This document shows, one piece after another, positions 22,371 through 46,186 of a stretch of 64,000 nucleotides of DNA (position 1 is the first letter of the stretch; each line of letters opens with the position of its first letter). The DNA is taken from assembly GCA_947561715.1 (NCBI GenBank), contig OX387197.1:22904266-22968265 (forward strand), in the 5' to 3' direction. This DNA comes from Ascidia mentula. Taxonomy: Eukaryota > Chordata > Ascidiacea > Phlebobranchia > Ascidiidae. A program made the position numbers and the translations under genes. The notes below the pieces were generated by a model. It made no database searches, was not told where the DNA came from, and saw only the letters and a list, made by a program, of their open reading frames with translations.

Positions 22371-24736
22371 ATGTTTTGGTCAATTCTTCCAATACTGAGC
22401 GCGATGCAAATTGCAAATGCTCAGACTTGGCAACAGTTCAAAGAAATCGAATTCCTGTTCGTAACAGAGCCACCCGCCAAAACGTATTTTGAAGCGGAAA
22501 ATGCGTGTACTGCTCTAAATGCACATCTCGCATTCCTGAAAACTACTGCCGTTTCCACTTTTGTAGCTTCAAACATGATGGTATTTGCAGGTGATTTGTG
22601 ATTCAATAAACCGAATTACGATCGAAAACATATTTTTTGGTTTAAAGTCTGTGTTTCTAAGGTTGAATTTCTGTAGCTTGGGTAAAGTCATAATACATTT
22701 TCTGCCTTTATGGTAGCTTTGTTTTTTTGTGTCACTGTCAGTTTCATATTTTTAAAAATAGACGGCAAATAAAGGTAAAAGTATGGCGTTTACTGTGTAT
22801 ACTCGAAGCAAAAACAGAGCTGTTTTTGTCCATACATTACACAGAAGCGCCATACGACTATTTCATCGGTGCAAAAAGATTAAAGGGAACTGGGCAGTTT
22901 GTGTGGAACGACGGAACGAACGTCACGAATCCGCTGTGGGCCTCCGGGCAACCCGACAACATTGGAGGATTCAAGGACTGCGTTTCGATAGGTTACAGCA
23001 CGAAACTAAGAGGTTTAAGTTCGGTACTTGGTTGGTATGCCGTACCCTGCCCCACAAGCGGAAGATACATTTGTCAACGACTAATATCAAGTTTGTAATT
23101 TTTTGCCCAGTGTGTAATTGCCGGAGATTACGATAGTTTAAAACATGACTTTTCTATCAGCGACAATAGCGTCAGTATCCACTACAATTTTAACAACAGC
23201 GAAAGCCGTCAACACGATGACTTCCTTAACCAGTAATACAGTAAAGATTAAAACTACGTCAAAGAGCATTGTAACTCCAGGTAAGAAATCCCCAAGAGGG
23301 ATTTTTTGTTGTTGAAACAGCGTGGCCAGAATAAAACGAAAACGCATGAAACTAAAGCGCTTATTTCTACTTGCTTAGTTTAACAACCACAATTACAACT
23401 TTGTTAACATAAAAAAATACGGCAGAATGTCACATTGATAAGATAAGTCTGTGTTTATAGCTTTACTTAGCTACACAACGTTACCGTCACACACAAAAAT
23501 GACTCAAGAATGTCATGAGTTATCGATGTTATTACGGTGTCCGGTGTAAAAAATGGGGATCGGCCATAATATTATGTAATTGGTATTAACGCTGCAAAAC
23601 GTGACGCCGTTCATCCTTCAGGAGGAAGGGGAAGCGTTGAGTAAATTGAACGACGTCATCGCTTTGGGGACGGATCGTTTGTTCATCGCCGTCATTTTTT
23701 CACGATTCTAAAACATTCGGCTTCGTTTATTCATTATTTTTACGTAAATCATATTTGGAAAGAAACCCGTTGTTTGACACAAGTACCATTCAATGCAAAT
23801 AAAAGCTGCTTTAAAACCGGAAATTTTTTTGGTATACGCAAATACTCAACATAAAATGTATTCTTTTTGGTTCCAGGTATCCAAGTGACTACTGGTTTGC
23901 CAGCCGAAAATCAAACTTTAAATCTAAACCGCACTCGAATCCATGTTCTCCCGGGTAAAGGCAAATTTTTGTCAAGTACATTTGTCTGTCACAGAACCTG
24001 ACTGTTTTTTTTCTGGATAAATTTTTCGTTTGCTTCCATACCAGCTAACAGGTTTTGCTAATTTTTAGGCAACAGTGCTGCAAATTTGACAATAATATAC
24101 ATCGTCGTTCCTTGCGCGTTGGCAGTGATTGCCATCTTCCTGGCTGTTGTCTGGATCATGTGCCGGAATAAAAATAACACAAGGTGAGAAATTGTGTTGT
24201 GTGGCCAAAAGAAATGGGTTTTACACGAAGGCTTATGTTTTCTCCAAATTTGTCACACGTTAGGTTTACGCAAGCTTGTAGGCTACGCAGAAAATCACAT
24301 TCCTGTATGTATAAACCCTACAACGCGTTTAGAAAAACTAGGTGAATAGTTTGGTTTATTACAAACAGACAATGCAATCTAAGCAGGTAATAAATTTATC
24401 TTTGCATAACATCGAACTTTGAAATTTACAATTAGGAACCGAACTGGTTTGTTTTACAAATATGTTTTCCTTTTTAGCAAGAGCAGCAACACCACGTCCA
24501 CGAGTGTTCCGCAAAATAACATCACTGAACAACCCAAACCCAAGGCAATTTACGAAATTCCAATTGAAGCTCCGCAATACGATTACATTAAAACAGGTAG
24601 GATGTGGTTTACACCCTTAGATCGTCGATTAACTTTTGTTTACCGTTTTTGTTTAGGAACCGACGCAAACGACGCAGCAACTTACGTAAACTTACAAGGA
24701 AGTCCGGACCAGTCGGTGTATGAGAATTACGTGTAA
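22371..24736 (+). CDS. Receptor F: C-type lectin-like transmembrane receptor, short tail, QPD type
   Basis: Predicted 325 residues. Exons: 22371-22590, 22845-23090, 23161-23280, 23877-23954, 24069-24183, 24478-24596, 24657-24736. Signal peptide about 1-17, CTLD about 18-155 with QPDN; the WND position reads WYAVPC, so calcium ligands at that end are missing. Two stalk exons (156-221) are Thr-rich with N-glycosylation sequons (NQT, NRT). TM about 229-252 is followed by MCRNK. The tail has YEIPIE, YDYIKT, TYVNLQ and C-terminal VYENYV. The stalk, TM and tail exons have near-identical copies in receptor H, while the CTLD of H is unrelated to F beyond family level. AATAAA at 24994-24999. Confidence 0.83.
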
Positions 24737-25338
24737 ATAACGGGTTTACATCAGTTATTGGAAGCGATTAAGTGTGCATGGACCAGTAATAGCCTTGACG
24801 TGTTATGGCGTCACTTTCTGGTTGCGTTTGTTATAAAAAGTCCATTTTCATGGCTGCGTCACGCAAAAGGATCTCTCTTTTATTACTTGTTTTTTTTTCT
24901 TTGTACGCGCGATGCACGTTCTTTTATCTCTGTCCAACGTTTGAAATTTTTCTTAATTTATTTATTCTGTATCATAATACCACGCGCTAATGCAATAAAA
25001 TACTGCTTTTCAACTCATTGTACAAGTTATATCTAAACCTTAATGCAAAAACACGACGTCGACCATCTAACAGTAAGCGTTGGGGGGTTGATGAGGAAGT
25101 GGTGTTGGTTTGACAACATCCATAAGATGTATTTCATCGTTCGCTAGAACGCCCGGAAATTGTTAAGACCCAAGTCTTCCGTGCATAATTAGGAAGCTCA
25201 TACCATTAGCTTTTAGAGCTTAGATGAACATCAAATAAGGCCTTGGTTAATAACAACTGCATTCAATTGGGCTTTAATAAGTTAGAACAGCATTTACGGT
25301 CAGTCAGATGTAAATCACATCGCAGTTGCAGCAACATC
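24737..25338. other. Intergenic stretch between receptors F and G
   Basis: Closely repeated at 33270-33895 between H and I, showing that the F-G spacer was duplicated with its genes. No coding exon recognised. GTTGCAG lies a few bases before the start codon of G, so a 5' UTR splice acceptor is possible. Confidence 0.5.
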
Positions 25339-27064
25339 ATGATTTTGTATGCTACGATTATTGCCTTGGCGACATTGCAGCTTGCTAATGCTGAAGTGTG
25401 GTATCAGTTGGACGGACAAGAGTATATCGTGCCACTCGTTACCTCTCTCTCTTTCTCTGATGCTGAAGCCAAATGCAAAGCGATAAACGGCCACGTGGCT
25501 TATTTAAATTCAACAAAAATTTTTGATTTTTTGGCAGCGAAAATCACCGTTAATGTGGGTATGTGTCCAAAGTCTTCGTATGGTGCGCGATAACAGCCTT
25601 ATACGGTGTATGTTTAAATAGGCTTTAATCTACAACGTTTTTACATTGGAGCGAAGAGAATTATCGGCACGGATATATTTATTTGGACGGACGGCACAAA
25701 GGTTAATAATACTAATATACCGTGGACACAAGGGGAACCAAACAACTTGAACGGTGTCGAAAACTGCTTGGAAATGCTGCGAATGTATGGACTGACGGTG
25801 AACGATGTCATATGCTCGAGTCCGAAGCCATACATATGTCAACGTAAAATAAGCGGTAACTAAAGTGTTTAATTTTGTGTGCACTCAACCATGTCCCTTT
25901 TTTCGGAATCATGGTCTCGTCGCCAAGTGTAATGACAGAAAATTATAGGCTAGAATATGCAGGAATGCTTACAATTTCATTGGTTTTATACCACCGAACG
26001 ATTTACATTCAAAACCGAAATGACAAATACGTAAACTCGCACAACCGATATAAGTTTAACGGCAGCAATGGCAGTGGAACAGTTATGGATATTTATTTGA
26101 GCCACAAAAATTATCCAACGACACAACGGCAAGTGACGTAGGAAAATAATCCCATTTTCCGTGACAGGTCTCATGGTCAATCCCCGTTTAACCGGAATCC
26201 GAACTTCTGATCAAAACATAACTCCAATTATGGATGGGCCAGGTTGGTAAAATTTGTTTTGAGTTGTTTCAGTTGGCTTTCAGCGTATATGTCCTAAACA
26301 TTTCCAACAAACAGAAATAAATCTCCTAATCGTATGCCTTATTACCGAAGAAAACACGATTCGTCATCAAGGTTCAACAGTTTGGAAATGTTTGTGTTTT
26401 GTTTAGTCGGGAAGACAAACTTGACTCTGTACATCGCCATCCCATTTTCGTTGCTGCTGGTAGTGGTGGTGGTCGGCGCAGCTGTAGCCTGGGTGCTGTA
26501 CAGGAAAAAAGGTACAGCAGGGTGAGTCATAGACTTTAGGTTACTGTGATACATTTAGGTTAACGATCTATACGCAGTGGTTTGTAAATATGCTTAAAAA
26601 TCGTACTAACAAAGTTAAACTGCAATTCAAATTGGGTTATTTATTTGCAATCAAGTTTTTTTTTTAAATAAGAAAAAACCTAATTAAAACGTTTGAGACG
26701 CAGAGGAAAAACTTAACTTTCTAAAATGAAATTTAGCACTTGAACCTGGCCTGCATGTGTTTTCGGTTCTGTGCTTAAGTATTCTAATTTGCAGCACCAG
26801 GAATACCAGGGACATTCCTTCTACAAACGCACAACCCGAACAAGAAACAAATTACGAAATTCCAATCCCAGGACAAGTTCACCAATACGATTACATTAAA
26901 ACAGGTGAGGATTGAGTTGTAGCTTACAAATGATTGAAGTGGGTTTAGGCTGAATTACACCACTTGTTTCAGACGCCAGCTCCATAAACAGCGTAAGCTA
27001 CGTGAATGTACAGAGTGGTAGCATTCTAGAGAATCATGCGGATTACCTGGAAATAACGGGATAA
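25339..27064 (+). CDS. Receptor G: C-type lectin-like transmembrane receptor with complete EPN calcium site
   Basis: Predicted 281 residues. Exons: 25339-25558, 25622-25855, 26168-26242, 26407-26521, 26795-26904, 26973-27064. The start at 25339 is preferred over an in-frame ATG at 25243, because it begins directly with a good signal peptide (MILYATIIALATL). CTLD about 19-151 with FIWTDGT, EPNN, GVEN and VNDVIC. It keeps the EPN, the following Glu and the Asn-Asp pair, the full set of primary calcium ligands of mannose-type CTLDs. Short stalk (152-176), TM about 184-207 followed by YRKK. The tail has YEIPIP, YDYIKT, SVSYVNV and DYLEITG; VSYVNV fits the ITIM consensus exactly and contains a YxN site. 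Near-identical copy: receptor I. Confidence 0.85.
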
Positions 27065-27530
27065 CTACATTGATCAAAAATGTCCTCTATAATGGTTGAG
27101 TCAAACCCTAATGTGGTTGACGTGTTATCGTTGCTTCTATATATTCCCTTCACACGAAAAGGCCCGTCTTCCAAAGTTGCTATTTGGCGCACATGATGTT
27201 TGGCATGGAGAAATTTTCGAATCCTTTTACAAAATTTAATAACTTACCATATGTCAAGTGCTGTCATATATGCCTGATTAACTTACAAGTTCATGAAAGA
27301 AATGCATTGTTTGCGTTGAAAAGTCAATGGACTTTTGTACCTGTTGTTTGCCGTGATATGCAATAATGCGTTAAAAAGTTTTCATTCGTCGAAGATGTAT
27401 GTATACGATAATATGAGAAGGTGTGTGTATGGTAATGTGTGTGTTATTAACCACTACTGTCTAAAATCATAGACTCTATTTCACAATAATTTCAGGACCT
27501 GAGTCACAGTGGCAAGCTGAGGGCGTTGGA
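27065..27530. other. Spacer between receptor G and the following pseudogene
   Basis: Matches 35604-36090 downstream of receptor I with small indels. No gene recognised; it is part of the duplicated block. Confidence 0.5.
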
Positions 27531-28840
27531 AAGTAGCGTTGAACAACTACTCATGTTACATCTTTTTATCGCCGTCTCCTTACCGCCTCTAGCGTTCTCT
27601 AATATGTTATCTACGATAACTTCTGCGTGTGGTGACCTGAGACTATGTATGTGTGGAAGTAACGCAAGGGATTCGTTGTGTGAGACACTTATAAGTTTTT
27701 GGCCAATTTTTACGTTTGAATTAAGGCATATGTACCCTCCTGGGTTTAAGCAGGTCCAACTAGCCCTGAGAAATATTACCGTTACACTTACACAAGAGAA
27801 TTCGCGGGAAAACGTTTTCGCGTAGCTACAGGTTGTAAAAAGCCCAATCACTACATTGGCCACATAGGACAAGGTTAAATACAAACTGTTTACATTTACA
27901 TTAGTAACATATAATTGCTTGATCAAATCGATTTTGTTTGAAATATTTTCTCTCACAGAAGCATGAACGTCAAAATAGTAAACGTTGCGTTGACAGCTAC
28001 GAAGTTTGTTTGTGCTCGAGTTTGCGGACAAAGAGTTGCACGGACAGAGAATGTCATGAAACCAGAAATTTTAGAAACCTTTTTCGATGTTGAGTTCAAT
28101 GCGAAGCTAAAAACGGCGGTGTTACGCATGTAAACTCATTAAATGTTTTCCAACTTTTTGATTGTGAAAATCGTTTTGGGACCAATTGAGAGTGTCGCCT
28201 GTTGTACAATGTGCAATACCATAATGGGCAAACCCGTTGGTCAAAACCTTTATAAAGAGGGAAATTTTGTGCAACACCAAACAATCTTCATAAAGAGGGA
28301 AAAAATGCCTGAAATAGAAGCAGCAGAACTATTTTGGTGCTACCCCGTTTCGTGCTCAATCCCGCGGCCATACATTTGTCGGTGAACGAATATTGGTAAG
28401 TGATGGAATCAATCACTTCTCAGAACAGTAAATAGAAAGCTTCATAAACTTATGACTCAATATCTGCTGGTTTACAATAGAATTTTCAACTGTTTCGTTC
28501 AAGAAATGGCCAAGAAAATATCCTATGGGTTTCAATAGTTGGGTGTTTGCTGGTAATAAAGCTGATTTGTTTGGCAGTGATTGCAAAACTCCACAGGAAT
28601 ATAAAAATGGTAAGTGTGTGAATCATAGCAATATACATTAGTTTCAAAGAAATAGTCACAGAAATGTTTTAGATCAAAGTTTTCAGACACTCGAGGTCTC
28701 AGCAATTCGTGCCCCATCCGCATGTGGCCGTATGGAGTTGGAATACAAAATCCAACTTCCAACGCTTCAAACGGAGATTCGCACCACGACACCATAAGTA
28801 GGATTATCCAATTACACATGTCTGGATAGTTTTGTGACAA
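27531..28840 (+). pseudogene. Lectin receptor pseudogene 1 (G-like)
   Basis: A signal-peptide-like frame starts at 27553 (MLHLFIAVSLPPLAF). Positions 28087-28195 recall the GHVAYLNSTKIFDF segment of receptor G but are out of frame and stopped. 28310-28383 encodes a CTLD end (WCYPVSCS, then RPYICR). 28530-28610 encodes an apolar helix (GCLLVIKLICLAVIAKL) with a donor after it, and 28686-28797 a possible tail exon with EYKIQLP. The CTLD is disrupted, so no functional receptor is expected. Two relatives follow at 36090 and 39150; all three share the same broken CTLD core, so decay predates the duplications. Confidence 0.65.
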
Positions 28841-29079
28841 CTGTGCAACATCTTCGTGTTTGCTTTCGGTAGATATCGACCCAGTTGCACTCTATATATC
28901 ATTTATCAACGCACCAAGAGCTTCTCATTTCATGGCCTAGATTGATTTGATTACTGATTTTTGACGTACTTTGATTACTGATACATAAGTTTTGAAAAGA
29001 TTTAGAGTTTTTTTCTTTTGTTCGCCGTTATAATTCGCTTGCCATATATTCTGTTACAAAAGTTTGCGAGCACTACGTT

Positions 29080-29344
29080 ACTTTAATCTTAGAACTGAAA
29101 CGTTTTTCATTAGTTGGTCAGGCAGCAGGTTCAAAACGGTCATAGGTTATCTAGTCAGGCGCTCATATGAAGGTGATTCTCCGTGAGGAAATGCAGGTTT
29201 CAACTATATTATCCAGGAAATAACATTGAAAACAAATTTACATGTAGTATATGCAAAAACGCGGAACGCGACACCACAACAAACCAACAACCTCGCGCGC
29301 TTGATGACGTCACTGTACAAAATAGCCCTATGTAGGCGGGTACT
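29080..29344 (+). promoter_or_regulatory. Promoter-like block of a lost J-type receptor
   Basis: Nearly matches 40160-40415, the region upstream of receptor J, including GATGACGTCACTG (a CRE-like palindrome TGACGTCA) and CCCTATGTAGGCG. In J it leads to the TATA-like box and start codon; here it is joined directly to a tail-exon relic at about 29344-29351. Confidence 0.55.
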
Positions 29345-29930
29345 GTCACGTGTACAACAAACTGCCTGAAGAAACCCCAGATTATAACGTACTCCATAAC
29401 GAAAACATCACGAAGTTTGTTGGTGAATGTGCGTACGACGAAGTCAGAGCTTCAGGCGAACCTGCACAAACCCAATCAGAGGAACAGCCGATTTCCAGAC
29501 ATACGAGCAAGTTATGTTACCACATGAGAAACCGAAAAAACTACCCAATGATGACCGCAAGTTTATATCTGTCCGTGAAGTTGAGTTAGCAGAAAAATCC
29601 GCAAAATCCGGTTTAAGTTATATCGTAGTACGACAGAACGAGCCGCCTTGGTATTTTGTAGTCAAACGAGAGCAAAGAGGAAAAATGACCGACGAAATCG
29701 TCCAAGATCAAGAAAAAGCTGTCGTGGAAATCTGTGGGAGCACCGATATCCAGCACAGTGGGTAAGCACCCTCAAGCCAAGAGTAAAGGGAGGAACTCCG
29801 GCTATGAAGTAGCGAGAAGCTTTTCGAGGCAAACTTCAAAATGTGTGATGGTGGCTGACGAAATAATAGAGGAAGACTGCAAAGAGGTGGAAAGAAGAGC
29901 AACCTCGGTATACTTCGATGACGTCATTTA
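29345..29930 (+). pseudogene. Tail-only relic of a J/K-type receptor
   Basis: Matches the last exon of receptors J (42257-43042) and K (45419-46186) from the VYNKLP site onwards: YNVL, AYDEVRASGEP, later sites and the SFSRQTSKCVMV block. An internal deletion near 29470 (about 150 bases relative to J) shifts the frame. No CTLD, stalk or TM exon precedes it; a J-type promoter block is fused just upstream. The 3' flank (29990-30110) also matches that of J (43030-43140). It is the remains of a first J copy, removed by a deletion of what is about 1.84 kb in J. Confidence 0.75.
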
Positions 29931-30479
29931 ATGGAAATGGAAACGACAGTGAATCTACGAGGAACAACCATTTGTGACATTTGCTGTTACATGTTTCCAT
30001 AAATAAACATGCTGATATCATCTGCCAGTCTTTAGCTGGTCTGATGATAATTTACACAGGGTTTTGCCTTTTATTACGCTTTTTTGCGCTTTGGCATTTA
30101 TTGTCGTGTTAGCGTTAACGTACTCTCCCTGATGAAGGTCCGTTGGGTAACTAATAATTCCTCGACCGAATAAATAAGTTTTGCCAGAATAACTTTGACG
30201 TGAAAAAAACTTTGGCGATTTGCCAGAAGAACTTTACAATTTTTCTGTTTCTCTTATTCGCTCCACTTTCTACAAATTATGAGTGTTTATGTGTTAATAA
30301 AACGATAGTTGGAGGTTTATGAAAAAGGCAATTGTGGTGTCAAAATGATGAGAACTTTCAAAGTTTAACGTTTCATTGCAATAAAGTGTTGTGCTGAGGA
30401 ATGTTAAGCTTGCTTTGAAAAAACACATTTATAGTCTTCGTGAAACCAAGATTAAATTTGACAAGTATACACAGAATCG

Positions 30480-30632
30480 AACACTGTATCTAACGAACGA
30501 TAACCTGCTCACCTTGCGACTGTACGCAAATATAGCCTTACGTAGGTGAGGGTCTCCAAATATGTGGGTGTTTTGTATATACACCAAGAAGCCGTGTTTT
30601 GATGGCACAAGATTGTTTTATGGTAATAAGCG
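30480..30632 (+). promoter_or_regulatory. Conserved promoter block of receptor H
   Basis: The same block precedes J (about 40380-40488) and K (about 43590-43727). Shared features in order are an ACCTGCT segment (H and K), TATGTAGG-type and ATGTGGGTG segments, a TATA-like box (30574-30583; J 40428-40437; K 43671-43679), then a conserved GGCACAAGATTGTTTT stretch about 20-30 bases before the ATG. The TATA-like box sits about 57-60 bases from the start codon in all three, so transcription probably starts within about 30 bases of the ATG. Confidence 0.55.
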
Positions 30633-33269
30633 ATGGATCTTGCTTTGTTTCTTTGTTTTGTGATGTGCTTCTCAACACAAGTTACTTCCCGAACCTGGCA
30701 TCAGTTTAAAGGTTACGAGTATTATATGGAATACAGTAATGTCAGTAATTACGCTCAAGCTCAAAGTGGATGTGCTGGAAGAAATGCAAGTGTGGCAAAT
30801 GTTAAAACGACTCAAATATTTAACTTTATTTCCGAAACAATACGTGAGAAAGGTGAATATTTCCTTATCATATCTTTTGGTAATTTCTGGTTTACAACCA
30901 AAATGCGCATTGCATTTCACCAGTTAGGAGTCAAAGTATTTGGTAATATGTTTTTTACGTGCAACAATATGAGATACATGTTTGTAGGGTTTTCAAACCA
31001 TCCCTACGCATATTACATTGGTGCAACGAGAAAAACAGGCACCAACAAGTTTCAATGGACAGATGGGACAAGCGTAAATGTAGCACAATGGCGGAAAGGA
31101 GAACCCAACAACATTACAGGAAACGAGGATTGTGTGATAATGGGATACACTTTAGATTCGAATTCTGCATTTAAGTGGAGTGATGTTGCTTGCTCATACA
31201 AAACAAGATACGTTTGTCAAAGAATGATTGCACGTGAGGACAAATGTTATTGTTAAATGTAACAAATTGATCGTAAAGTGATGACTCTTGAAAAATTTTG
31301 TGAATTTGAAAGCAACTTCAACGACCACATTAAGCAATGCAAGTAAATTGACATCGCTTTCCATCACCTCCTCGAGCTCACCGAAAATCACTGGCACAAC
31401 AGCGAAAGCCACCAACACGATGAGTTCCTTAACCAGTAGTACAGTAAAGATTGAAACTACGTCAAAGAACATTGCAACTTCAAGTAAGAAATCCCCAAGG
31501 GGGGTTTATTGTTGTAGACATTGTGTAGCCGGAAATGAAACGCATGAAACAAAAGTTGCTTTATTGGACAACCACAATCACAACTTTTTTAACATAAAAG
31601 ACGAAGACAGAATGCCGTAATGATAAGATAAGTCTGTGTTTGTCTTTACTTAGCTACACAACGTTACCGTCACAAGTAAAAATGACTCCAGAATATCGTA
31701 AGTTATTCGATGTTATTACGGTGTCCTGTGCAAATAATGGGGACCGGCCATTATGTCATGTAATTTCTCATAACGCTGCAAAACGTGTCGCCTTTCATCC
31801 TTGAGGGGGAAGTGGAAGGGGAAGCGTTGAGTAAATTGAACGACGTCAGCGTCTTTGGGGACGGATCGTTTGTTCACCGCGGTCATTTTTTCACGATTCT
31901 AAAACATTCGGCTTCGTTTACTCATTATTTAAACGAGAATCATATTTGGAAAGAAGCCCGTTGTTTGATACAAGTACCATTCAGTGCAAATAAAAGCAGC
32001 TTTAAAACTGAAGATAATATATCAAAATTAAGCTAAACATTTTGGGTATGGAACCATTTACTTTATAGGTACGAAAAAAATATGTGGTAGAACCTTTATT
32101 CGTTGGTCCACTACAATAGATATACGCAAACATTGGTACATGTACCAGCATCGATACATAAGCTGCCGACCACCGGAACGCGACCATCAAATATTTTTCA
32201 TAAATCCACATTAACAAACACATTTTTTCGGGGGTGTGTTTCTCGCGGCCCAACACCAGGACGTGCGATGCAACCAAAATTCCTAGATTTACATTGCAAT
32301 CGACTTTTCCTTCCATAAGTTAGTACAGGTACTCGGTATTTTTAGAATGGTGCAGCCGCTACGTCGCATAACAAAGTTTAAATAGCACTTCAATACATCA
32401 TATGTGAAGTTTGTAAACCCTTCTGCTCATTATCCCTAAATAAATATTTAAAATAATGTTTCAAACAATCTTACACCCTAATGGGAGTTTAGTAGGCCTG
32501 CGATTGTCTTCGTTGTTCCCTTTGTGCTCACCTGTGTGATGTGCCGAATGGGGGTAATATGAAAGGTATGCATTCCTGTCAAATACACTTTTACCATTTT
32601 CACTCAAATATAGATAGAACGTTTGGCATAGACAAATGCTCAAGATATAAATAATATTCTTTTTGGTTCCAGGTGTCCAAGTGACTACTGGTTTGCCACC
32701 CGGAAATCAAACTTTAAATCTAAACCACACTCGAATCCATGTTCTCCCGGGTAAAGGCAAATTTGTGTGAAGTATATTTGTCTGTAACAGAACTGGGCTG
32801 ATATTTTTCTGAATAAATTTATCGTTTGCTTCCATACCAGCTAACAGGTTTTGCTAATTTTTAGGCAACAGTGCTGCAAATTTGACAATAATATACATCG
32901 TCGTTCCTTGCGTGTTGGCAGTGATTGCCATCTTCCTGGCTGTTGTCTGGATCATGTGCCGGAATAGAACGAGGTGAAAAATTGTGAAACTGGCAATGAA
33001 GACCCAAACTGGTTTATGTTACCAAAATGCTCCTTTTTAGCAAGAGCAGCAACACCACCACACCGAGTGTTCCGCAAAATAAGGTCACGGAACAACCCAA
33101 ACCCAAGGCAATTTACGAAATTCCAATTGAAGCTCCGCAATACGATTACATTGAAACAGGTAAGACGGGGTTTACACCCTTAGATCGTGGATTAACTTTT
33201 GTTTACCGTTTTTGTTCAGGAACCCACGCAAAAGACGCAGCAACTTACGTAAACTTACAAGGAAGTTAG
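30633..33269 (+). CDS. Receptor H: chimeric C-type lectin receptor (K-type head on F-type stalk, TM and tail)
   Basis: Predicted 330 residues. Exons: 30633-30852, 30988-31233, 31313-31483, 32673-32750, 32865-32973, 33041-33159, 33220-33269. Signal peptide and CTLD (about 1-155; FQWTDGTS, EPNN, WSDVAC) closely follow receptor K. The 171-base stalk exon is K-like in its first half and F-like after about 31395, and everything downstream copies F: TM about 246-269, YEIPIE, YDYIET, TYVNLQ. A TAG at 33267-33269 ends the tail eleven codons before the homologous F stop, removing the VYENYV site. Intron 1 (30853-30987, 135 bases) is open in frame, so a retained form is possible. Intron 3 carries about 600 bases not in F (about 32048-32650). 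Confidence 0.83.
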
Positions 33270-35603: not shown

Positions 35604-36090
35604 CCACATTGATCAGACATGTTCTCTATAATAGGTTGAGTCAAACGCTAATGTGGTTGACGTTTTATCGTTGCTTCTATATGTTCCTTTCACACGAAAA
35701 GGCAAAACCCGTCTTCCAAACTTGCTATTTGGCGCACATGATGTTTGGCACGGATGAATTTTCGAATACTTTTACAAAATGTAATAACCTACCATATGTA
35801 CCAGTATAAACAGCAAGTGTCATATATGACTGATTAACATTCAAATTCATGAAAGAAATCCATTGTTTAAGTTGAAAACCCAATGTACTTTTGTACCATT
35901 TGTTTGCCGTGTTACCCAATGCGTTAAAAAGTTTTCATTTGTCGAAGGTGTATATACGATAACATTAGAAGGTGTGTGTATATGGTAATGTGTGTATTAT
36001 CCGCCAATGCTGTCTAAAATCACCAGCTTTATTTCACTCCAATAAATTCAGGACCTGAGTCTCTGTGGCAAGCTGAGGGTGTTGGAAAGT
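35604..36090. other. Spacer between receptor I and pseudogene 2
   Basis: Copy of 27065-27530 with small indels; no gene recognised. Confidence 0.5.
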
Positions 36091-36198
36091 GGCGTTGAAC
36101 TACTACTCATGTTACATCTTTTTATCGCCGCCTCCTTACCGCTCCTAGCGTTTGCTAATATGTTATCTATGACAACTTCTGCATGTGGTGAGCTGAGG

Positions 36199-36272
36199 CT
36201 ATGTATGCGTGTCAGTGACGCGAAGGACTCGTTGTATGAAGTGTCCTTCGCGTCACTGCCACGCATACATAG
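36199..36272. repeat. 30-base inverted repeat (hairpin) with 14-base loop
   Basis: The left arm 36199-36228 is the reverse complement of the right arm 36243-36272 with one mismatch. Pseudogene 1 has only the left arm at the same place, so the right arm arose after the duplication and replaced local sequence. Confidence 0.9.
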
Positions 36273-37062
36273 TCAAACTTGTTACATTCACATTAGTAAC
36301 ATATATTTGCCTGATCACATCGATTTTGTTTGAAATATTTTCTCTCACAGAAGCATGAATGTCAAGCTAATAAACATTGCGTTGACAACAATGAAACTTG
36401 TTTGTGCTCGAGTATGTTATCGCGAATGTCATGAAACCAAAAATTGCTGAATCCTTTATGCGATGCTGAATTCAAATGTTAAGCGAAAAACGGCAGTGTG
36501 ATGTATGTAAACTCATTAAATGTTTTCCAACTTTTTGATTGCGAAAATCATTTTAGAACCAATTGAAAGCATCGCCTGTTGTACAATGTGCGATATAACT
36601 GCACATATAGGTTTGTCTGGACAGTGGAGGAAACACCAAATATTCTTGATAAAAAGGGGAAAAAATCCCTGAAATAGTAGCAGCAGAACAGTATTGGTGG
36701 TACCCCGTTTCGTGCTCAATCCCGCGGCCATACATTTGTCGGTGAATGAATATTGATAAATGATGGTATCAATTATATCTCAAAAAAGTGAATAGAAAGC
36801 TTCATAAAGACTCATTGTGGTTCTGACGTTTTATCATGGCAATATGGCGGTAAAATTAACTATGAATTTTGAATGAATTGTAATTGGTCTTGGTCTTACG
36901 AGTTAAATTTGCGGAATTGAATCGAAATTTTAACATGGCTAAAGGGGAGAACTCATACTGCACGACTGCCATTAATCAAAATTAAAAAAAAATGGTAAAG
37001 CGAACAAATACATCCTGTTGGTGTAAATAACTGAAATTAGTCTGTTATATTTTTGTGTAGAC

Positions 37063-37266
37063 CAGTGATTCCCAACCTTTTTGTGGTTGCGTACCACTTG
37101 GAGGAAACAAAATTGACGGGTACTACCTAGTTGAGTGTTACAAAGTAACCTAAGGGTAGAAGTAACAAACAGTAATACGAACTATATCCGCAAAGATGCT
37201 CGCGTACCATCTGGAATCCCGTCGCGTACCACTAATGGTACGCGTACCACCGGATGGGAAACACTG
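37063..37266. mobile_element. hAT-like MITE with 8-bp target duplication
   Basis: Ends are CAGTGATTCCCAACC and GGATGGGAAACACTG, imperfect inverted repeats. Flanks GTGTAGAC (37055-37062) and GTTTAGAC (37267-37274) form an 8-bp target duplication with one mismatch, the size typical of hAT elements. Internal palindromic GGTACGCGTACC type motifs; no coding capacity. Same family, opposite orientation, at 53122. Confidence 0.85.
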
Positions 37267-37584
37267 GTTTAGACTGCACTTACACAAAATCCAAAATCCA
37301 ACGAAATTATTTTACTGTTTACCACTGAAATGGTGTTGATGTCGTTGCTTATCAGATACACCTACAAACACCTTAGTTATTTTATCCTTACAGGCATAAT
37401 ACCTGCAGGTTTAAAATGGAATTTTTAACTGTTTCGTTCAAGAAATGGCATAAAAATAAGCTAGTTGGGTGTTTGATATATATAATAAAGCTTTTTGCTG
37501 ATAATAAAGCTGATTTGTTTGGCAGTGATCGCAAAACTCCACAGGAAAATAAAAAATGGTAAGTGTGTGAATCATAACAATATA

Positions 37585-38560
37585 GGGGAGACCGGGGATA
37601 CCTCAGACACGGGGATACCTCGGACCAGGTATTTTACGTCACAATTAGGTATTGTTAAGACACTTTTACAAAAGCTTTATGTCTCCATCAAACGTTAACA
37701 GGAACTTTGGAATTAAATCATCTCTGCTTAACAAATTATAATCGAAAAAGTCAATTTATCAGTGAAACCAAGTTTTTCAATTTGTATGTGGAAGGTTATA
37801 TATCTGTCACAGTTAATCAAAATGCAGTAATTTTGGGTTGATTGCATAATCAAATATGTATTCTTCGATAGGCCAATGATGATTTTGTATAACCTTTAAA
37901 AATACGGCCATAGTTTAAGAATTTCTATGTCGTCACGTGGTCGGGGATACTTCGGACATCATGTCAAAAAATCGCGGGAAGGCAATAATTTTTGAGTTTT
38001 ATGAAAAATTATCGGTCATAGCAGAGAATAAACAGAGGCTGGATGAAATGATTGAATTTTGGCAGTAAGAAAAAGCCCCAAAGATAAAAAATCATTTGTT
38101 GACTCTAAAATCTATAATATCTGTGCTACCGTTAAAAGTACACGAGTTACCCAAAACATGAACGTGTGGAAAGGTCGAAACGAGAAGTGGCCACGCCCCG
38201 ATTCCTGAAAGCTTTAATGATAGTTTATGCGCTAATGCCCCAATGCTGATATTGCGCCAAGTTTGATTTCAGTTATTTGTTAAATAAACAAAAAAAAACG
38301 TCTGTTAAAACTTGCTGTCCGAGATATCCCCAGTCACGTCCGATGTTACCCCGGTACCGGGGTGACTTCGGACATTTGAGACCTGTTTAAAAAATGGGCT
38401 GAATAAACATTTTTAGTGAGCTAAAACGAACGAAAAACCTTTTGTTTTTTGAGTAATGCTTTACTTCTAACAACAAAATAAAATTTAAGAATGTGGTTCA
38501 TAATTTAAAAAAAATATGAGCAATTTTCCCAAAACCGTCCGAGCTATCCCCGGTCTCCCC
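37585..38560. mobile_element. Non-autonomous DNA transposon with TA target duplication
   Basis: Starts GGGGAGACCGGGGATA and ends with its inverse TATCCCCGGTCTCCCC (imperfect beyond that), flanked by TA on both sides. The paralogous position near pseudogene 1 (about 28634-28637) is uninterrupted and has a single TA, so the empty site confirms a 2-bp TA duplication. Subterminal repeats of a CTTCGGACAT/GGGGATACTTCGGAC kind occur inside. No complete transposase frame was found. Superfamily is uncertain; TA duplication fits Tc1/mariner-like elements. Confidence 0.85.
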
Positions 38561-38890
38561 TACATTACTTTCAAAGAAATAGTAACATAATTGTTTTTGA
38601 TCAAAAGTTAAGTTTTCAGACACTCGAGGTCTTAACCAGTCGTGACTCATCCGCATGTGGGCAGTATGGAGTTAGAATACAAAATCCAACTTCCAACGCT
38701 TCAAACGAAGATTCGAAATACGACACCACAAGTAGGATTATTCAATTACACATGTCTGGATAGTTTTGTGGCAACTGTGCAACATCTTCGTGTTTTTTTG
38801 AGTAAATATCGACACGACTGGGCCTATGTATCGTTTATCAACGCACCGAGAACTTTTCATTTTATGCCCTTCAGCACCTACAAACATTGA

Positions 38891-39150
38891 TTGTTGTGTT
38901 GGTCAGGTAGTAGGTTCAAACCGGTTATAGGTTTTCTAGTCAAGCGCTCATGTTGAAGGTGATTCTCCGTGAGAAAATGTAGGTTTCAACTTTATTGTCC
39001 AGGAAATAACATTGAAAACAAATGTACATAAAGTTTATGCAGAAACACGAAACTCGACGCCACAACAAACCAACAACAACGCGCGTTTGATGATGTCACT
39101 GTACAAAATAGCCCTATGTAGGCTGCACATGTGGGTGCATTATACATGTT
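38891..39150 (+). promoter_or_regulatory. Second copy of the J-type promoter block, upstream of pseudogene 3
   Basis: Matches 40180-40435 upstream of receptor J (ATTCTCCGTGAG, the ACCACAACAAAC segment, CCCTATGTAGGC, CATGTGGGTGCATTATACATG) and then runs directly into pseudogene 3 sequence, without the GGCACAAGATTG stretch or a start codon of J type. Probably non-functional. Confidence 0.45.
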
Positions 39151-39830
39151 GGAGTTCGCGGACAGAGAGTTGCACGGACAGAGAATGACATGAAACCAAA
39201 AATTGCTGAATCCGTTTTTGATGCTGAGTTTAAATGAAAACTCATTTAACCTTTTCCAACTTTTTGATTGCGAAAATCATTTAAGAACCAATTGGCAGTA
39301 TCGACAGTACTAGAATGTGCAATATCATCATTGGCAAACCCCAATATCTCCTGAGAACAAGGAGATTTAACAGCACAGATAGGTTTGTCTGGACAGATGG
39401 GACCAATATGGATCCACATCTGTGAAGGAAACACGAAACAAAGAGAAAAAAATGCCTTGAAATAATACATGGGTGGTATCCTGTTTCGTGCTCAATCTCG
39501 CGGCATTTACCTATCAACACCGTATTTATTTGTTTTCGCAAGGATGATTACCGCTGATTTTAGAATTGAATATTCATAACTTTTTTGTTCAGAAAATGGC
39601 ACCGAAACAATTTGTGAATGGCTGTTGTTCTGTATTTGCCTGCTTTTATTTTTTTTCTGACTTTTTTGTAGTGATCGCTTTTCAAACACTCGAGGTCTCA
39701 ACAAGTCTTAACTGATCCGCATGTTGGCAGTATGCAGTGGGAATACAAAATCCAACTACCAACGCTTCAAACGAAGATCCGTACTACGACACCATTAGAT
39801 TATCCACCTACACACCTCATGGGTTGTATT
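39151..39830 (+). pseudogene. Lectin receptor pseudogene 3
   Basis: The shortest of the three related relics. 39210-39300 holds the decayed first-exon core, 39375-39410 a readable RFVWTDGTN segment of a CTLD second exon, 39470-39505 the WYPVSCS end, and 39720-39790 the tail-like EYKIQLP segment. Frames are broken between these pieces. The upstream junction joins a J-type promoter copy to the relic. Confidence 0.6.
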
Positions 39831-40488
39831 GTGGCAACTGTGCAACATCTTAATTTTTTTGAGTAGATATTGACCCGACTGCACCATGTGTATCCTACCT
39901 ATGGTGTCAGCAGCATGAATCTCCGCTTGAAGAGTTGTAAGTTGATATGCAATTTCAACGCCATACTGCACCTATCAACACACCGAGAGCTTCTTAGAGT
40001 ATGGCCTTTGGCACCTACGAGAATTGATTACTGATGCTTGTTTTTTCTCCATAAGTTTTGAAAAAATTTAGTATTTGTTAGTTTGTTCGCCGTCATAAGT
40101 CGCTTGATCGCCATATATTCTGTTACAAAAGTATGCGAACACTATATTAATTTAATCTTAGATCTGACTCGTTTTTCATAAGTTGGTCAGGCAGCAGGTT
40201 CAAACCGGTCATAGGTTATCTAGTCAGGCACTCATATGAAGGTGATTCTCCGTAAGGAAATGCAGGTTTCAACTGTACTGTCCAGGAGTTAGCATTGAAA
40301 ATAAACGTACATAAAGTTTATGCGGAAACGCGGAACGCGACACCACAACAAACTAAAAACATCGCGCGTCTGATGACGTCACTGCACAAAATAGCCCTAT
40401 GTAGGCGACTACTGCACATGTGGGTGCATTATACATACGCCAAGATGCCGTGTTTTGATGGCACAAGATTGTTTTGTGAGAACAAGCG
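39831..40488 (+). promoter_or_regulatory. Spacer and promoter block of receptor J
   Basis: 39831-40160 aligns with 28801-29080 in the first block. 40160-40488 holds the shared promoter block: a TGATGACGTCACTG palindrome (40371-40384), CCCTATGTAGGCG, ATGTGGGTG, a TATA-like ATTATACATA (40428-40437) and the conserved GGCACAAGATTG just upstream of the ATG. Functional status is inferred only from conservation upstream of H, J and K. Confidence 0.5.
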
Positions 40489-43042
40489 ATGGATGTTGTT
40501 GCGTTTCCTTGTATTTTGATGTGCTTCGCATCCCAAGTTGTTTCACAAACCTGGCACCAGATTGAAGGTTACGAGTATTACATCGAATACAGTGCAGTTC
40601 GTAAATATGCTCAAGCTCAAAGTGGATGTGCCTCAAGAAATGCTCACATAGCCAATGTTAAAACAAACAAGGTCTTCAACATTCTTATTGGGAAAATAAA
40701 TGTGACAGGTGAATGCCTCTTTCTTTTAGTTTTTAAGGCTAATATGCGTTTTGCAGGTTTTAATATCAACGATACTTCTTTCGCGTATTATACATTGGCT
40801 AGATAATGGCTTTGAAAAACTTACAGACGTTCCCTACTCGTTTTACATCGGCGCAACGAGAGTCACAGGAACCAAAAAGTTTCGGTGGACAGATGGAACA
40901 AGTGTTGATGTAGCACAGTGGCATGGAGTTCAGGAACCAAACAACGAAGGTGGAAATGAGGATTGTGTGATAATGGGTTGGATTTATTCACTTGATTCAA
41001 CATTCAAATGGAGAGATGTTCCCTGTTCATACACATCAAGATACCTTTGTCAACGTACTGTTTCAGGCAGGAAATGTCACTAACATGATCTTAACACCTG
41101 TCATAATAACTTACAAAAAATATGTTTTGTGTTCACATACTTAACCTATGAGATATATTTGGCAAAAAGTCAATCGAATAAAATTGATGTTTCAGCAATT
41201 TCGACTGCCACAGAAAGTTTCACAAGCAGCTTGATGTCGGTTTCCACACACTCATTGAACTTAATTGAGATGGAAACCAAAGATACAACCCGCACGATAA
41301 CAACGGACGAAACCATGGAAACAATATCAGAAGCCACAGTATACGAAAATGAAATGGGCGAAACAGCTGAAACAAGTGTTGCAACCAAAACTTACCAAAT
41401 GCAAACGGAAGAACCAACTTTAATAAATTTTGCAGTTAACAATCAAACTTGGATGACAGAATATGTTTCACCGATTGAAAATACATCAAACCGTGCATTT
41501 GTGACGTTGTTAAGTGTTGAAACAAGCTCTAAAACGTCAGGTAAGGTTTTCGCATTTTTGTCGTTTGCTGCGGCAAAAAAAACGTAGTTTAGGTAAAAAG
41601 TAGTTAACCTTCGGTTAATAATAAGCAGAGTATAGGTTAAATTAGGAGAAAATTGACAGAAAAACTATCTTTATTTGTATGTTTATTATTTTATTTATTA
41701 GGAAGTAAAACTGAGGCAGATATTATGAGTTACCTGTTTCCATTCATCGGTGCCTCAGCTGGGGGTGGCATTGTTGTCGGAATGTTGATCTTTGCTGCCA
41801 TTTTACTTTGCTGCAAATATTGCAGGTGCTCTAATATTTATTGAGTGGCAAAGTTAGTTTACAAACAACACCAACTCTATATAATGATATCTTTTTAGGT
41901 CCGTCAAGAAATGTAGCGTCAACGAAGGCCAGAATCTACGACAAGTTTCAATGAATCAGACCAACCAAAAAAATGGTAAATTGTTACAAATTGTAACCAT
42001 TATGTCAAGTAATGGAAAAGTAACGAGTGTAGAAACTGTACACAGTTTACAGCTTCTTTAAAATATGTGTTGAGAAAGTATTAAATAACAACAAAGCATA
42101 GTTTTCCTAAAAAGTGCTTTAATAACTTTTGATTTTACTGAAATTCAAGATCACTCAAGCCAAAGCGATGAAGAGCTTGCAGACCCTTTAACTGTGAAAC
42201 AGGAAGAAACCTCGTTAAACTCTTACAATTCCGACACCGAAACTCAAGAGAATCACGTCTACAACAAACTACCGGCCAGTGAAGATACCCCAGCTTATAA
42301 TGTACTCCAAAACGAAAACACTGCGAAGTTTGTTAATGAATGTGAGTACGACGAAGTCAGAGCTTCGGGTGAACCTGCGCAGACCGTTAATGACGAAAAG
42401 AATAAAATGTTCACAAACGACCAGACTGAATCGGAAGTGAGCATCAACCAATACGAACAAGTTAAAATTTTCAACGGACTTCCGCAACACGTAGTTAGCA
42501 CTAAGAACAATCCTCCAAAGCCAATCAGCGGAACAGCCGATTTCCAAACGTACGAGCAAGTTATGTTACCACATGAGAAACCCACAAAACTACCCTATGA
42601 TGACCGCAAGTTTATACCTGTCCGTAAAGTGGAGTTAGCAGAAACATCTGCAAACTCTCAAGTAGGCTCAAGTAATAATGTAGTAAAACAGAAGGGCCCG
42701 TCTCGGTATTCTGTAGTCAAACGAGAACAAAGAGGAAAAACGACCGACGAAATTGGCCCAGATCAAGAAAAAGCAGCCGTGGAAATCCTTGGAACAGCAC
42801 CGATGCCCAGCACAGTGGGTAACCAACCTCAAGCCAAGAGTAAAGGAAAAAACTCCGGCTATGAAGTAGCTAAAAGCTTTTCGAGGCAAACTTCAAGATG
42901 TGTGATGGTGGTTGACGAAACGATAGAGGAAGACTGCAAAGAGGTGGAAGAAGAGCAACGTCGGTATACTTTGATGACGTCATTTAATGGAAATGGAAAC
43001 GACAGTGAATCTATGAGGAACAAACATTTGTTCCATAAATAA
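40489..43042 (+). CDS. Receptor J: C-type lectin-like transmembrane receptor with a 320-residue tyrosine-rich tail
   Basis: Predicted 632 residues. Exons: 40489-40708, 40827-41066, 41196-41540, 41702-41825, 41899-41975, 42150-43042. Signal peptide about 1-19, CTLD about 22-153 with EPNN and WRDVPC. The donor after the CTLD exon appears to be GC (CAG/GCAGGA at 41067), which keeps phase 1; if unspliced, the frame ends five codons later. One large Thr/Ser-rich stalk exon (154-268) with several acidic sites and NQT/NTS sequons. TM about 279-305, Gly-rich (ASAGGGIVVG) and ending CCKYCR, possibly palmitoylated. The tail has YNKL, YNVL, YDEV, YEQV twice, YSVV, YEVA and C-terminal YTLM (PI3K-type). 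An AATAAA overlaps the stop codon. Confidence 0.83.
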
Positions 43043-43727
43043 ACAGTGCTGATATCATCCGCCAGTCTGTTAGCTGGTCTGATGATAATAAACACAGTAT
43101 TTTGCCTTTTTTCACGTTTTTTTTTACTTTAGTATTTAGCGTCGTTTTACCGTTTACGTACTTGCCCTGATGAAGGTCGGTTTGGTAACGAATGAAACGT
43201 CGACCGAATAAATAAGTTTTGCCAGAACAACTTTGACGTGATATTTAACTTTGGCGACTTGCCAGAAGAGCTTTGTAACTTTGACGTTACTCTTATTCGC
43301 TCCACTTTCTACACAATTATGAGTGTTTATATGTTATTCTATATTCACTTTTTTGCTTAACGGTGTTTTCGTTGAACCAATATATAAACAAAACGATAGT
43401 TAGAAGTTTATGAGAAAGGCAATTGCGGTGTTTAAATGATGAGATGACAACTTTCAAAGTCTAACATTTCATTACAATAAAGTGATCTGCCGTACAATGT
43501 TGAGTTCCACAACAAATCACTTGAGAAAAACAAAATTAAATTTTCCGTTTAAACCTAGACAACATTCGATACAAAATCTAACACTACATCTAGCGACCGA
43601 TAACCTGCTTATCGTTTGCCTGTAGGCAAATATAATCTTATGTAGGTGTGCTGTAAATATGTGGGTGTTTTATATATACGCCAAGAAGCCTTTTTGATGG
43701 CACAAGATTGTTTTGTCAGAACTAGCG
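43043..43727 (+). promoter_or_regulatory. Spacer between J and K with promoter block of K
   Basis: 43043-43260 matches the flank of the tail-only relic (29990-30230). 43590-43727 is the conserved promoter block (ATGTGGGTG, TATA-like TATATATAC at 43671, GGCACAAGATTGTTTT). No coding exon. Confidence 0.5.
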
Positions 43728-46186
43728 ATGGATCTTGTTGTGTTTTTTTGTCTTATGATGTGCTTCGCATCACAAGTTACTTCCCAAACCTGGGATCAGT
43801 TTAAAGGTTACGAGTATTACATGGAATACAGTAATATCAGTACTTACGCTCAAGCTCAAAGTGGATGTGCTGGAAGAAATGCAAGTGTGGCAAATGTTAA
43901 AACGACTCAAATATTGAACTTTATTTTCGAAACAATAAGTGAGAAAGGTGAATATTTCCTTGTCATATATTTTGGTAATTTCTGGTTTACAACCAAAAAG
44001 CGCATTGCATTTCTCCAGTTAGTAGTCAAAATGTTTTGGTCATATGTTTTTTACGCGTAACAATATGAGAAACATGTTTGTAGGGTTTTCACACCATCCC
44101 TACACATATTACATTGGTGCAACGAGAAAAATAGGCACCGACAAGTTTCAATGGACAGATGGAACAAGCGTTGAAGCAGCACAGTGGCATGAAGGAGAAC
44201 CCAACAACGTTACAGGAAATGAGGATTGTGTGATTATGGGATACACTTTAGATGCGAATTCTGCATTCAAGTGGAAAGATGTTGCCTGTTCATACAAATC
44301 AAGATACGTTTGTCAAAGGATGATTGCACGTGAGGACAAATGTTATTATTAAATGTAACAAATTGATCGTAAATTAATGACTCTAGAAAATTTTTGTGAA
44401 TTTTAAAGCAATTTCAACGACCACATTAAGCAATGCAAGTAAATTGCCATCGGTTTTAATAAACTCCCCAAGCTCACCGACCATCACTGGCTCAACCCGA
44501 AAAATCCCATCACTTTCGGAAACAACCATGGAAACAAGTTTATCTGCTGTCGCGGCCACAGTAAAAAGGATAGTAAAGGACGAAACGGTTTTAACAAGTG
44601 CTGCTGTCAAAATGTACAACATCCAAACAGAAAAAACATCTGCAAAAAATGTTGCATTTGACAACCAAACTTGGGAGAAGGATATTGTTACAACGATTAA
44701 AAGTGCCTCAAACAGCGCATTTTCGACAGGGTTTTTACGTGTTACAGCAAACTCGTTAACGACAGGTAATGTTTTTGCTTTTTTGTCGGTCTCTGTAGCA
44801 ACAAAAAAATAGTAAAAATTGCTTAGAACATTAGTTAACCTTGGGACGTTGTTAATAATCTATGTGGTATGGGTTAAATAAAAGAATATTTATTTGTATT
44901 TTACGCTTTTTGTTAGGAAGCAAATCTGACAGCGATATTGTAGTTTACCTGTTTCCTGTCATCGGTGCTTCAGCTGGGGGTGGCATTGTTGTTGGAATGT
45001 TGATCTTTACCGCTGTTTTACTTTGCTGCAAATATTGCAGGTGCTCTATTTGTTAATTAGCAAAGTTAATCTCACAAACAGTTCCCTACTATAATTTTTT
45101 TTTCAGATCAGTGAAAAAATGTAACGTCATTGAAGGCCAGAACCTACGTCAAGTTTCACGAAATCAGATTAACCCCAAAACTGGTAAATTATTACATTAA
45201 AACTTTAAGTCGAAAAATGAAACAAATTATCAACATACTAAATACTGAGTGTAAATCTAAACAAAGTATTATATTCAGTGCTTTAACTAACATTTGATAT
45301 TGTTAAACTTCAAGACCACTCAAATGAAAATTTCCAAGAGCTGGAAGACCCTCTGGCTGTGAAACAAGATGAAACAACATTAAACATATACACGTCCGAC
45401 ACCGAAGTTCAAGACAATCACGTCTACAACAAACTACCCGTCTCTGAAGAAACCCCACATTATAACGTACTCCAAAACGAAAACACTGCGAAATATGTTG
45501 GTGAATGTGAGTACGACGAAGTCAGAGTTTCGTGCAAGTCTGTGCAAACCGTCAATGACGAACACAATGACACGTTTACATACGAACAAACTCAATGCAC
45601 AGTGGGCACCAACCAATACAAACAAGTTAAAGTTTTCAACGACGTCCCACAATATGCGGTTAATGCTAAGAAGAATCCTTTAAAACCAATTAGCGGAACA
45701 GCCGATTTCCAGACATACGAGCAAGTTATGTTACCACATGAAACACGAGTAAAACTACCCAATGATGACCGCAAGTTTATACCTGTCCGTGAAATGGAGT
45801 TAGCAGAAGCATCTGCAAACTCTCAAGTAGGCTCAAGTCATAATGACGTAAAACAGAACGACCCGCCTCGGTATTCTGTAGTCAAACGAGAACAAAGAAA
45901 TAAAAACAACAAGGAAATTGACCCAGATCCAGAGAAAATTGACGTGAGAATCCTTGGAACAGCACCGATGGCCACAGAAAAACACAAGCAAAACCTTGAA
46001 GCAAACAGTATAAGAAAGAACTCCGGTTCCGAGGAATCGAGAAGCTTTTCGAGGCAAACTTCAAGATGTGTGATGGTGGTTGACGAAACGAAAGAGGTGG
46101 AAGAAGAGCAACCTCGGTATACTTCGATGGCTTCATGCCATGGAAATGGAAAGGACGGCCAATCATCGAGACACAACTATCTGTGA
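43728..46186 (+). CDS. Receptor K: C-type lectin-like transmembrane receptor, tandem paralogue of J
   Basis: Predicted 631 residues. Exons: 43728-43947, 44084-44329, 44409-44765, 44917-45040, 45107-45183, 45315-46186. The start at 43728 is chosen over an in-frame ATG at 43713, because it matches the starts of H and J. CTLD about 20-155 with FQWTDGTS, EPNN and WKDVAC (Asn of WND replaced by Lys). The 357-base stalk exon is Thr/Ser-rich. The TM is the same Gly-rich helix as J, ending CCKYCR. The tail of about 315 residues carries YNKL, YNVL, YDEV, YKQV, YEQV, YSVV and YTSM. CTLD and promoter are closest to H, stalk and tail closest to J. AATAAA at 46413-46418. Confidence 0.84.

Follow-up and report, generated by a model that had tools for sequence, protein, structure and literature searches.

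How does a receptor gene come to carry the lectin head of one neighbour and the signalling tail of another? The question arises in a stretch of 64,000 nucleotides from the ascidian Ascidia mentula (assembly GCA_947561715.1, contig OX387197.1, here C1, forward strand, C1:22904266-22968265). We call this stretch the window, and all coordinates given without a contig name refer to it. In it, C-type lectin domain (CTLD) genes follow one another in the order F-G-pseudo-J'(relic)-H-I-pseudo-J-K, an order proposed in an initial annotation of the sequence and upheld by our self-comparison. Gene H has the head of K and the tail of F. We conclude, with a probability of roughly 0.9, that both H and the gene order go back to a single unequal exchange, or to a tandem duplication of equal effect, in which the stalk exon of K was joined to that of F. 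The genes and sites on which this conclusion turns are the following:

22371..24736, + strand: gene F, 7 exons, 325 amino acids; divergent CTLD head with QPD, Thr-rich stalk and transmembrane (TM) segment; donor of the 3' half of H
23161..23280, + strand: F stalk exon; the portion from 23193 on is present again in H
30633..33269, + strand: gene H, the chimera, 7 exons, 330 amino acids; K-type CTLD head (EPN), F-type TM segment and tail
31313..31483, + strand: H stalk exon; K-derived from 31313 to about 31395, F-derived from there to 31483
31395..31400, + strand: recombination joint; best placed between 31395 and 31396, where K 44491 meets F 23193; CAAC common to both at 31397-31400
43728..46186, + strand: gene K, 6 exons, 631 amino acids; many YxxL/V motifs in its long tail; contributed the 5' half of H
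44409..44765, + strand: K stalk exon; its first 83 bases (to 44491) are present again in H

F, H, J and K all have open spliced models with canonical splice sites, and share one layout: a signal-like start, a CTLD spread over two exons, a Ser/Thr-rich stalk exon, a TM exon and a tail. In all four modelled genes the stalk exon is flanked on both sides by phase-1 introns (the intron phases of F are 1,1,1,1,2,1).

We located the joint within H by a single-breakpoint likelihood analysis and by mosaic painting. The likelihood was best for a breakpoint after 31395, and positions 31394-31400 lay within 2 log units of it, an interval that exists because CAAC is common to K and F there. A model of H as K followed by F beat "all K" by 452 log units and "all F" by 508. 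Painting each of 45 paired lectin genes (see below) against the rest gave the same switch in H, between 31395 and 31396. Both results uphold the initial annotation, which had H change from K-like to F-like at about 31395 within its stalk exon. In K, F and H alike a codon begins directly after the joint; therefore the fusion is in frame anywhere within the shared bases.

On the left of the joint, H and K are 93% identical in DNA over lectin exon 1 and 90% over exon 2 (81% and 85% in protein), and the best trees do not place the H head, 90-93% identical to that of K, as the partner of F. The top match of the F lectin exons to any gene is 55% (exon 1) and 58% (exon 2). On the right, the F tail found only F and H in a genome search at E <= 0.001, and the K tail found only J, K and the J' relic at the same threshold; the two types of tail do not align. 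The H tail stops at 33267-33269, 10 codons ahead of the F stop. We thereby confirm that H is a K-F chimera, lying at the junction of two tandem copies of a segment. The copies and the genes within them are:

23193..31395, + strand: copy 1 of the segment (F3'-G-pseudo-J'-K5'); colinear by self-BLAST, with indels, with 31396-44491
31396..44491, + strand: copy 2 of the segment (F3' of H-I-pseudo-J-K5'); from self-BLAST and the divergence table
25339..27064, + strand: gene G (copy 1); its partner is I, at 33896-35603; ends read from the sequence
33896..35603, + strand: gene I, the copy 2 partner of G; end read from the sequence
27882..28938, + strand: degenerate "pseudo" stretch; lectin-like end signature CYPVSCSIPRPYIC near 28340-28385, called lectin by eye; counterpart at 36274-38870
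28984..30059, + strand: J' relic; J upstream sequence fused to part of the J tail exon, without J exons 1-5
40489..43042, + strand: gene J, 6 exons, 628 amino acids; promoter, signal peptide, stalk, TM segment and tail related to K, CTLD exons nearer other cluster genes

Self-BLAST paired 23193-28938 with 31396-38870 in six blocks of 79.5-91% identity with indels between them, 28984-29353 with 40050-40421 (87%), and 29467-31400 with 42516-44496 (83%). The first of these pairings agrees with the initial annotation, which had the sequence after H align with F-G-pseudo. For the sequence before H, the proposed alignment with J-K also stood, and 29080-31395 does show colinear similarity with 40160-44510, but the start suggested near 29080 did not: all of 23193-31395 is colinear with 31396-44491. 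The two copies, now 8.2 and 13.1 kb long, meet within the H stalk exon, and a two-sided colinear match of such length is not due to chance. They differ in that the J' relic lacks two pieces of J, one of about 1.83 kb (40421-42253) and one of about 0.13 kb (42385-42516), and in that copy 2 has an extra internal duplication (38613-39147 versus 39679-40436, 82-86%).

This two-sided colinearity also decides whether gene conversion could have put a K-like head on an F-like gene with no duplication of a segment. Exon-confined conversion looks common in the array (J exon 2 is an example), and conversion might be proposed for H on that ground. However, H is matched colinearly over kilobases on either flank, by the left flank of K on one side and the right flank of F on the other, introns and intergenic DNA included, whereas conversion would have left F's own left flank in place. 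We therefore rejected conversion as the origin of H, to which we assign almost no probability.

We next consider whether H is an assembly artefact, in which two divergent haplotypes were placed one after the other. Highly heterozygous marine invertebrates are prone to such serial assembly. Against it, the window contains zero N; the blocks diverge by 7-18%, with indels up to about 2 kb; and the joint sits at a 4-bp microhomology, in an exon and in frame, a join that an overlap-based assembler would have no cause to create. In the searched genome (195.8 Mb, 79 contigs) the F segment has no long copy beyond that of H, which was found in three pieces, and is on no other contig. Its remaining non-self matches are two of 82 bases each, at 77%, in the G and I tails; outside itself, the K 5' segment matches H best (83% over 1.9 kb). 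A false duplication is thus very unlikely.

A single unequal exchange, or a tandem duplication of the same effect, could have produced this arrangement as follows. In an ancestral array F-G-pseudo-J-K, the K and F stalk exons would have been joined, the segment between the two exchange points doubled, and a new in-frame gene, H, created at the joint from the upstream region, signal peptide and lectin head of K and the TM segment and tail of F. Afterwards, copy 1 would have lost most of J, copy 2 would have gained its small internal duplication, and G and I would have been homogenised.

Divergence beside the joint agrees with one event. To the left, 226/1895 sites differ (Kimura two-parameter distance, K2P, 0.131), and just to the right 73/605 (K2P 0.132; p = 0.94 versus left); such equality is what a single event predicts. 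The direction of change can be read from J. The synonymous divergence (dS) between J and K is 0.39 in the TM segment and tail and 0.50 in the head, against 0.124 between the H and K heads, so that the J-K distance is three to four times the H-K distance. The upstream region, signal peptide, stalk, TM segment and tail of K are already present in J. Since the more distant J shares the layout of K, K is parental and its combination is older than H. The combination in F is less well polarised than that in K, because the F head is very divergent. When the two tandem copies are collapsed to one, what is left is F-G-pseudo-J-K, with no H.

Several results weigh against this account, and they concern (i) evenness of divergence, (ii) exon trees, (iii) sampling, (iv) homology at the joint, and (v) selection on H. 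Mean divergences of the blocks are uneven across the duplicate (0.07-0.18), and F3'-G past the first block is nearer (291/3591 sites; p = 6e-6 versus the K side). With divergence lower further right, later conversion must be added to the one-event account. Past G, the block means range over 0.11-0.18. Over 25393-27192, introns included, G and I have 80/1783 differing sites (4.5%), as against 107/957 and 77/488 sites in the parts of the G/I block outside it; the two genes were probably homogenised after the duplication, with gene conversion as the probable route.

The exon-1 tree gave (J,(H,K)) with support of 99/95 and H+K with 100/99. The exon-2 tree, which is short, gave H+K only 88/66, and in it F attaches to H+K on a very long branch (91/88). 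Approximately unbiased (AU) tests left the grouping H+F standing in both exons (p 0.42 for exon 2, 0.20 for exon 1). They likewise did not reject J+H+K (p 0.36) or all cluster rows but H and K (p 0.49) in exon 2, or all cluster rows but H and K in exon 1 (p 0.28), leaving 0/5 tested groupings rejected. Given such short exons and five groupings left unrejected, we dropped the trees as main evidence; the case for the chimera stands on identity and colinearity. The sampled material is a single haplotype.

At the joint, the K and F stalks have only CAAC in common. Of all K/F stalk offsets, 6.6% have an exact run of at least 4 bases within 5 bp, and around the joint 15/40 bases match, versus a mean of 11.1, with 13% of offsets equal or better. 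Homology at the joint is minimal, and the exchange cannot be called a homologous crossover; such a joint could result from microhomology-mediated joining, or from a highly ectopic crossover at which later change has eroded the similarity. On the strength of CAAC as the only common tract, the 6.6% of offsets and the 15/40 matches against 11.1, we lean towards a tandem duplication by microhomology-mediated or replication-based joining in place of meiotic crossover, a variant that gives the same products and departs from our account in mechanism only. Later mutation, which has reached about 12% of sites near the joint, may nevertheless have eroded a longer identical tract, and the location of both ends in stalk exons, in frame, suits meiotic crossover and microhomology joining alike. 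The single K-F stalk crossover of the initial annotation accounts for the gene order and for H once the later J' deletions and the small copy 2 duplication are added.

The ratio of nonsynonymous to synonymous change (dN/dS) showed no purifying selection on H, either in the head (0.65 [0.33-1.75]) or in the F-derived part (1.71 [0.72-6.4]; the H-F stretch, aligned by protein, begins 3 bases off the joint on the F side). H might accordingly be a decaying, functionless chimera whose frame has been kept by recency or chance, as would also agree with the loss of the last 10 codons of the F tail and with intervals that include 1 in both halves. Yet a divergence of about 12% near the joint has neither closed any of its seven exons nor cost it a canonical splice site, and its head still has the EPN and WxD residues. 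We regard a decaying H as somewhat unlikely. Taking the chimera as a working gene, we think that its likeliest role is that of a receptor with roughly the specificity of K, which would signal through F-type tyrosines.

The calcium/sugar motif of C-type lectins is EPN or QPD plus WND. The H and K heads have EPN with WSD or WKD, WSD being the form in H, and the F head has QPD but WYA in place of WND-like residues. Against the PF00059 profile (curated cut-off 22.6 bits), the H head scored 61.8 bits and K exon 2 scored 53.1 bits; K exon 1 alone, at 13.8 bits, fell under the cut-off. Among solved structures, domains of the mannose-receptor family were closest by sequence to both K and F, together with CLEC4-type domains for K and CLEC4D/E domains for F. 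The F tail contains the tyrosine motifs YEIP, YDYI, YVNL and YENY; the J tail is long with many YxxL/V motifs, as in K.

K and H would, judging from their sequences, form a pair that shares a head and differs in its tail, in plan like the paired receptors of vertebrates: nearly the same ectodomain stands on two different tails, and neither tail search finds the other. The strict consensus of the immunoreceptor tyrosine-based inhibitory motif (ITIM) is [I/L/V/S]xYxx[I/L/V]. The listed YxxL/V/I tyrosines of K and H carry H, P, C, N, Q or A at -2, so that these genes have only the looser YxxL/V/I motifs. Receptors of the natural killer (NK) complex (KLR, Ly49, CD94) are type II, with the tail and TM segment ahead of the lectin domain, and lectin-like NK receptors, as type II proteins, differ from the type I, N-terminal-lectin genes described here. 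In the latter the exon order is lectin domain, stalk, TM segment and tail, behind what appears by eye to be an N-terminal signal sequence, and type II topology is not found. Without a strict ITIM and with type I topology, neither membership of the NK complex nor an inhibitory or activating label is justified.

Is the stalk exon a general point of exchange, as the initial annotation supposed of Thr-codon stalks? We scanned the window together with 200 kb of neighbouring array (C1:22410001-22610000). From 54/64 exon-1 and 49/60 exon-2 hits covering at least 75% of the query, 45 lectin genes were paired (34 in the neighbouring array and 11 in the window); in-frame stops were present in 6 exon-1 and 6 exon-2 hits. 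An unaligned base was scored as a mismatch. We set aside an earlier triplet scan as too strict, for both donors had to align; of its 5 events, exon 2 had 3, exon 1 had 1 and the last lay downstream, and it missed H and the gene U32292. The 45 genes gave 24 switches: lectin exons 1 and 2 had 15 where 3.1 were expected, and stalk exons had 2 against an expectation of 1.2; the others lay downstream (5) or upstream (2). With 600-base flanks, lectin exons had 7/18 (2.9 expected) and stalk exons 3/18 (1.1 expected), the latter being two in one U32292/U42430 region and one in H. These counts are not independent, as sister copies repeat events (U73749/U116539, U92981/U142538, U60467/U83683/U133185), and the stalk exons were called automatically, which is doubtful for, e.g., E, G, I, U52613 and U92981.

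The second stalk-exon recombinant, U32292, lies about 490 kb from H and has its switch in a Thr-codon stalk exon at C1:22443215-22443236 (L012:3215-3236). It tracks U42430 to 251 bases past exon 2 and U60467 from 274 bases on, with a 22-base identical stretch between the two partner zones. Genome searches with its halves return these two genes as the best partners, U42430 for the left (95%) and U60467 for the right (94%), and exon 2 itself has mixed sites. The right-hand parts of U32292 and U42430 or U70759 still align, at 78-83%; therefore the type of tail was probably unchanged. A dispersed repeat of about 170 bp, present on many contigs at 87-97% identity, lies 3' of the U32292 stalk exon (L012:4501-4671, C1:22444501-22444671).

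Other exchanges involve the lectin exons. Switches between or within them were seen in U28475, which is outside the list of 24, and in U17306. In J exons 1-2 (40489-41054) the lectin exons are nearer to genes elsewhere in the array, and the upstream region and signal peptide are K-like. The dS of J exon 2 is 0.19 to four other array genes versus 0.45 to K, and the introns do not align. Lectin exons look converted, in an exon-confined manner, across hundreds of kilobases. The supposition about Thr-codon stalks is thus partly supported: U32292 adds a second case, but the stalk, with 2/24 switches against 15/24 in lectin exons, is one possible hinge and one real route among several, not the main one. 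A bolder and, to us, rather doubtful idea is that Thr-codon stalk exons act as frame-safe hinges in a germline combinatorial system, in which conversion would remix heads and stalk exchange (H; U32292) would move whole heads between tails. Individuals would then differ in their receptor repertoires and in which head is paired with which tail.

The surroundings of the window contain a very large group of CTLD genes, most scored exons lying at C1 22.4-27.7 Mb; the genome-wide exon count is a lower bound, 150 of the 770 candidate exons having been scored. C1:22410001-22610000 is densely filled with lectin receptor genes, which lie on both strands and many of which are mosaic; it also contains a 20-kb block duplicated at 96.5% (C1:22496453-22516391 and 22546032-22566005). 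Within the window, the stalk region of gene A (4029-4418) has a 197-bp tandem repeat unit with 85% match, a case of stalk growth by internal duplication. By eye, the tails of A and C (5327-5947 and 14832-15347) have YxxV/M/I tyrosines (TYSEV, MYSVV, LYSVV, VYTIM, VYAVV). Beside the lectin array, at 60977-63161, are stretches that look EGF-like by eye (CASNPCPSPLICND..., CAPNPCHTSAQCSATTDSF...), flanked by repeated DNA (61668-62304 versus 63234-63851, 95%).

Literature titles and abstract openings, a coverage that leaves most subscription journals outside, contained no report of this lectin-receptor array. Passages of a review of tunicate immunity (PMC5465252) mention CD94-like lectins and no such array. 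A search with the K protein found 3 proteins at E <= 0.001, the best being the uncharacterised Styela clava LOC120344945 (P0001; E 8.8e-15). By eye it resembles K in having Thr-rich stretches, a CTLD, a Thr-rich stalk, a TM segment and a long tyrosine-rich tail, but the identity is just 31% over 21% of K.

Closer parallels for the event itself come from vertebrates. For chicken BG genes, the authors of PMC4046983, in the passages available, invoke unequal crossing-over or deletion and hybrid genes. As here, this is a tandem, same-orientation immune family whose 5' and 3' ends have separate histories; unlike here, the domain is immunoglobulin V-like, the family lies next to the major histocompatibility complex, and the gene middles are scrambled, with no one mapped joint in those passages. 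Human KIR genes, in excerpts from PMC6558367, are likewise homologous receptor genes in the same orientation, in which recombination gives duplications, deletions and hybrids, and the receptors differ in inhibitory versus activating tails; they differ from the present genes in their immunoglobulin domains and in that population haplotypes are known, against one haplotype here. Like hybrids of the KIR and BG type, H takes its 5' and 3' parts from different paralogues at one sharp breakpoint, and its segment is duplicated in tandem with equal divergence beside the joint and lower divergence further right. According to the part consulted of a review of NK receptors (PMC1193534), tails join different receptors by nonhomologous recombination; there, too, an existing head is joined to another signalling tail, and some of the receptors are C-type lectin-like.

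H preserves the trace of a head/tail swap whose joint can be placed to within a few bases, and both parental genes are still present in the array. It raises the question of whether individuals differ in their pairing of lectin head and signalling tail, and whether that could serve self/non-self recognition. The kind of event is already known from KIR and chicken BG; what is new is the setting, a tunicate array of type I lectin receptors, to which we now extend a mode familiar from the NK and BG receptors of vertebrates.

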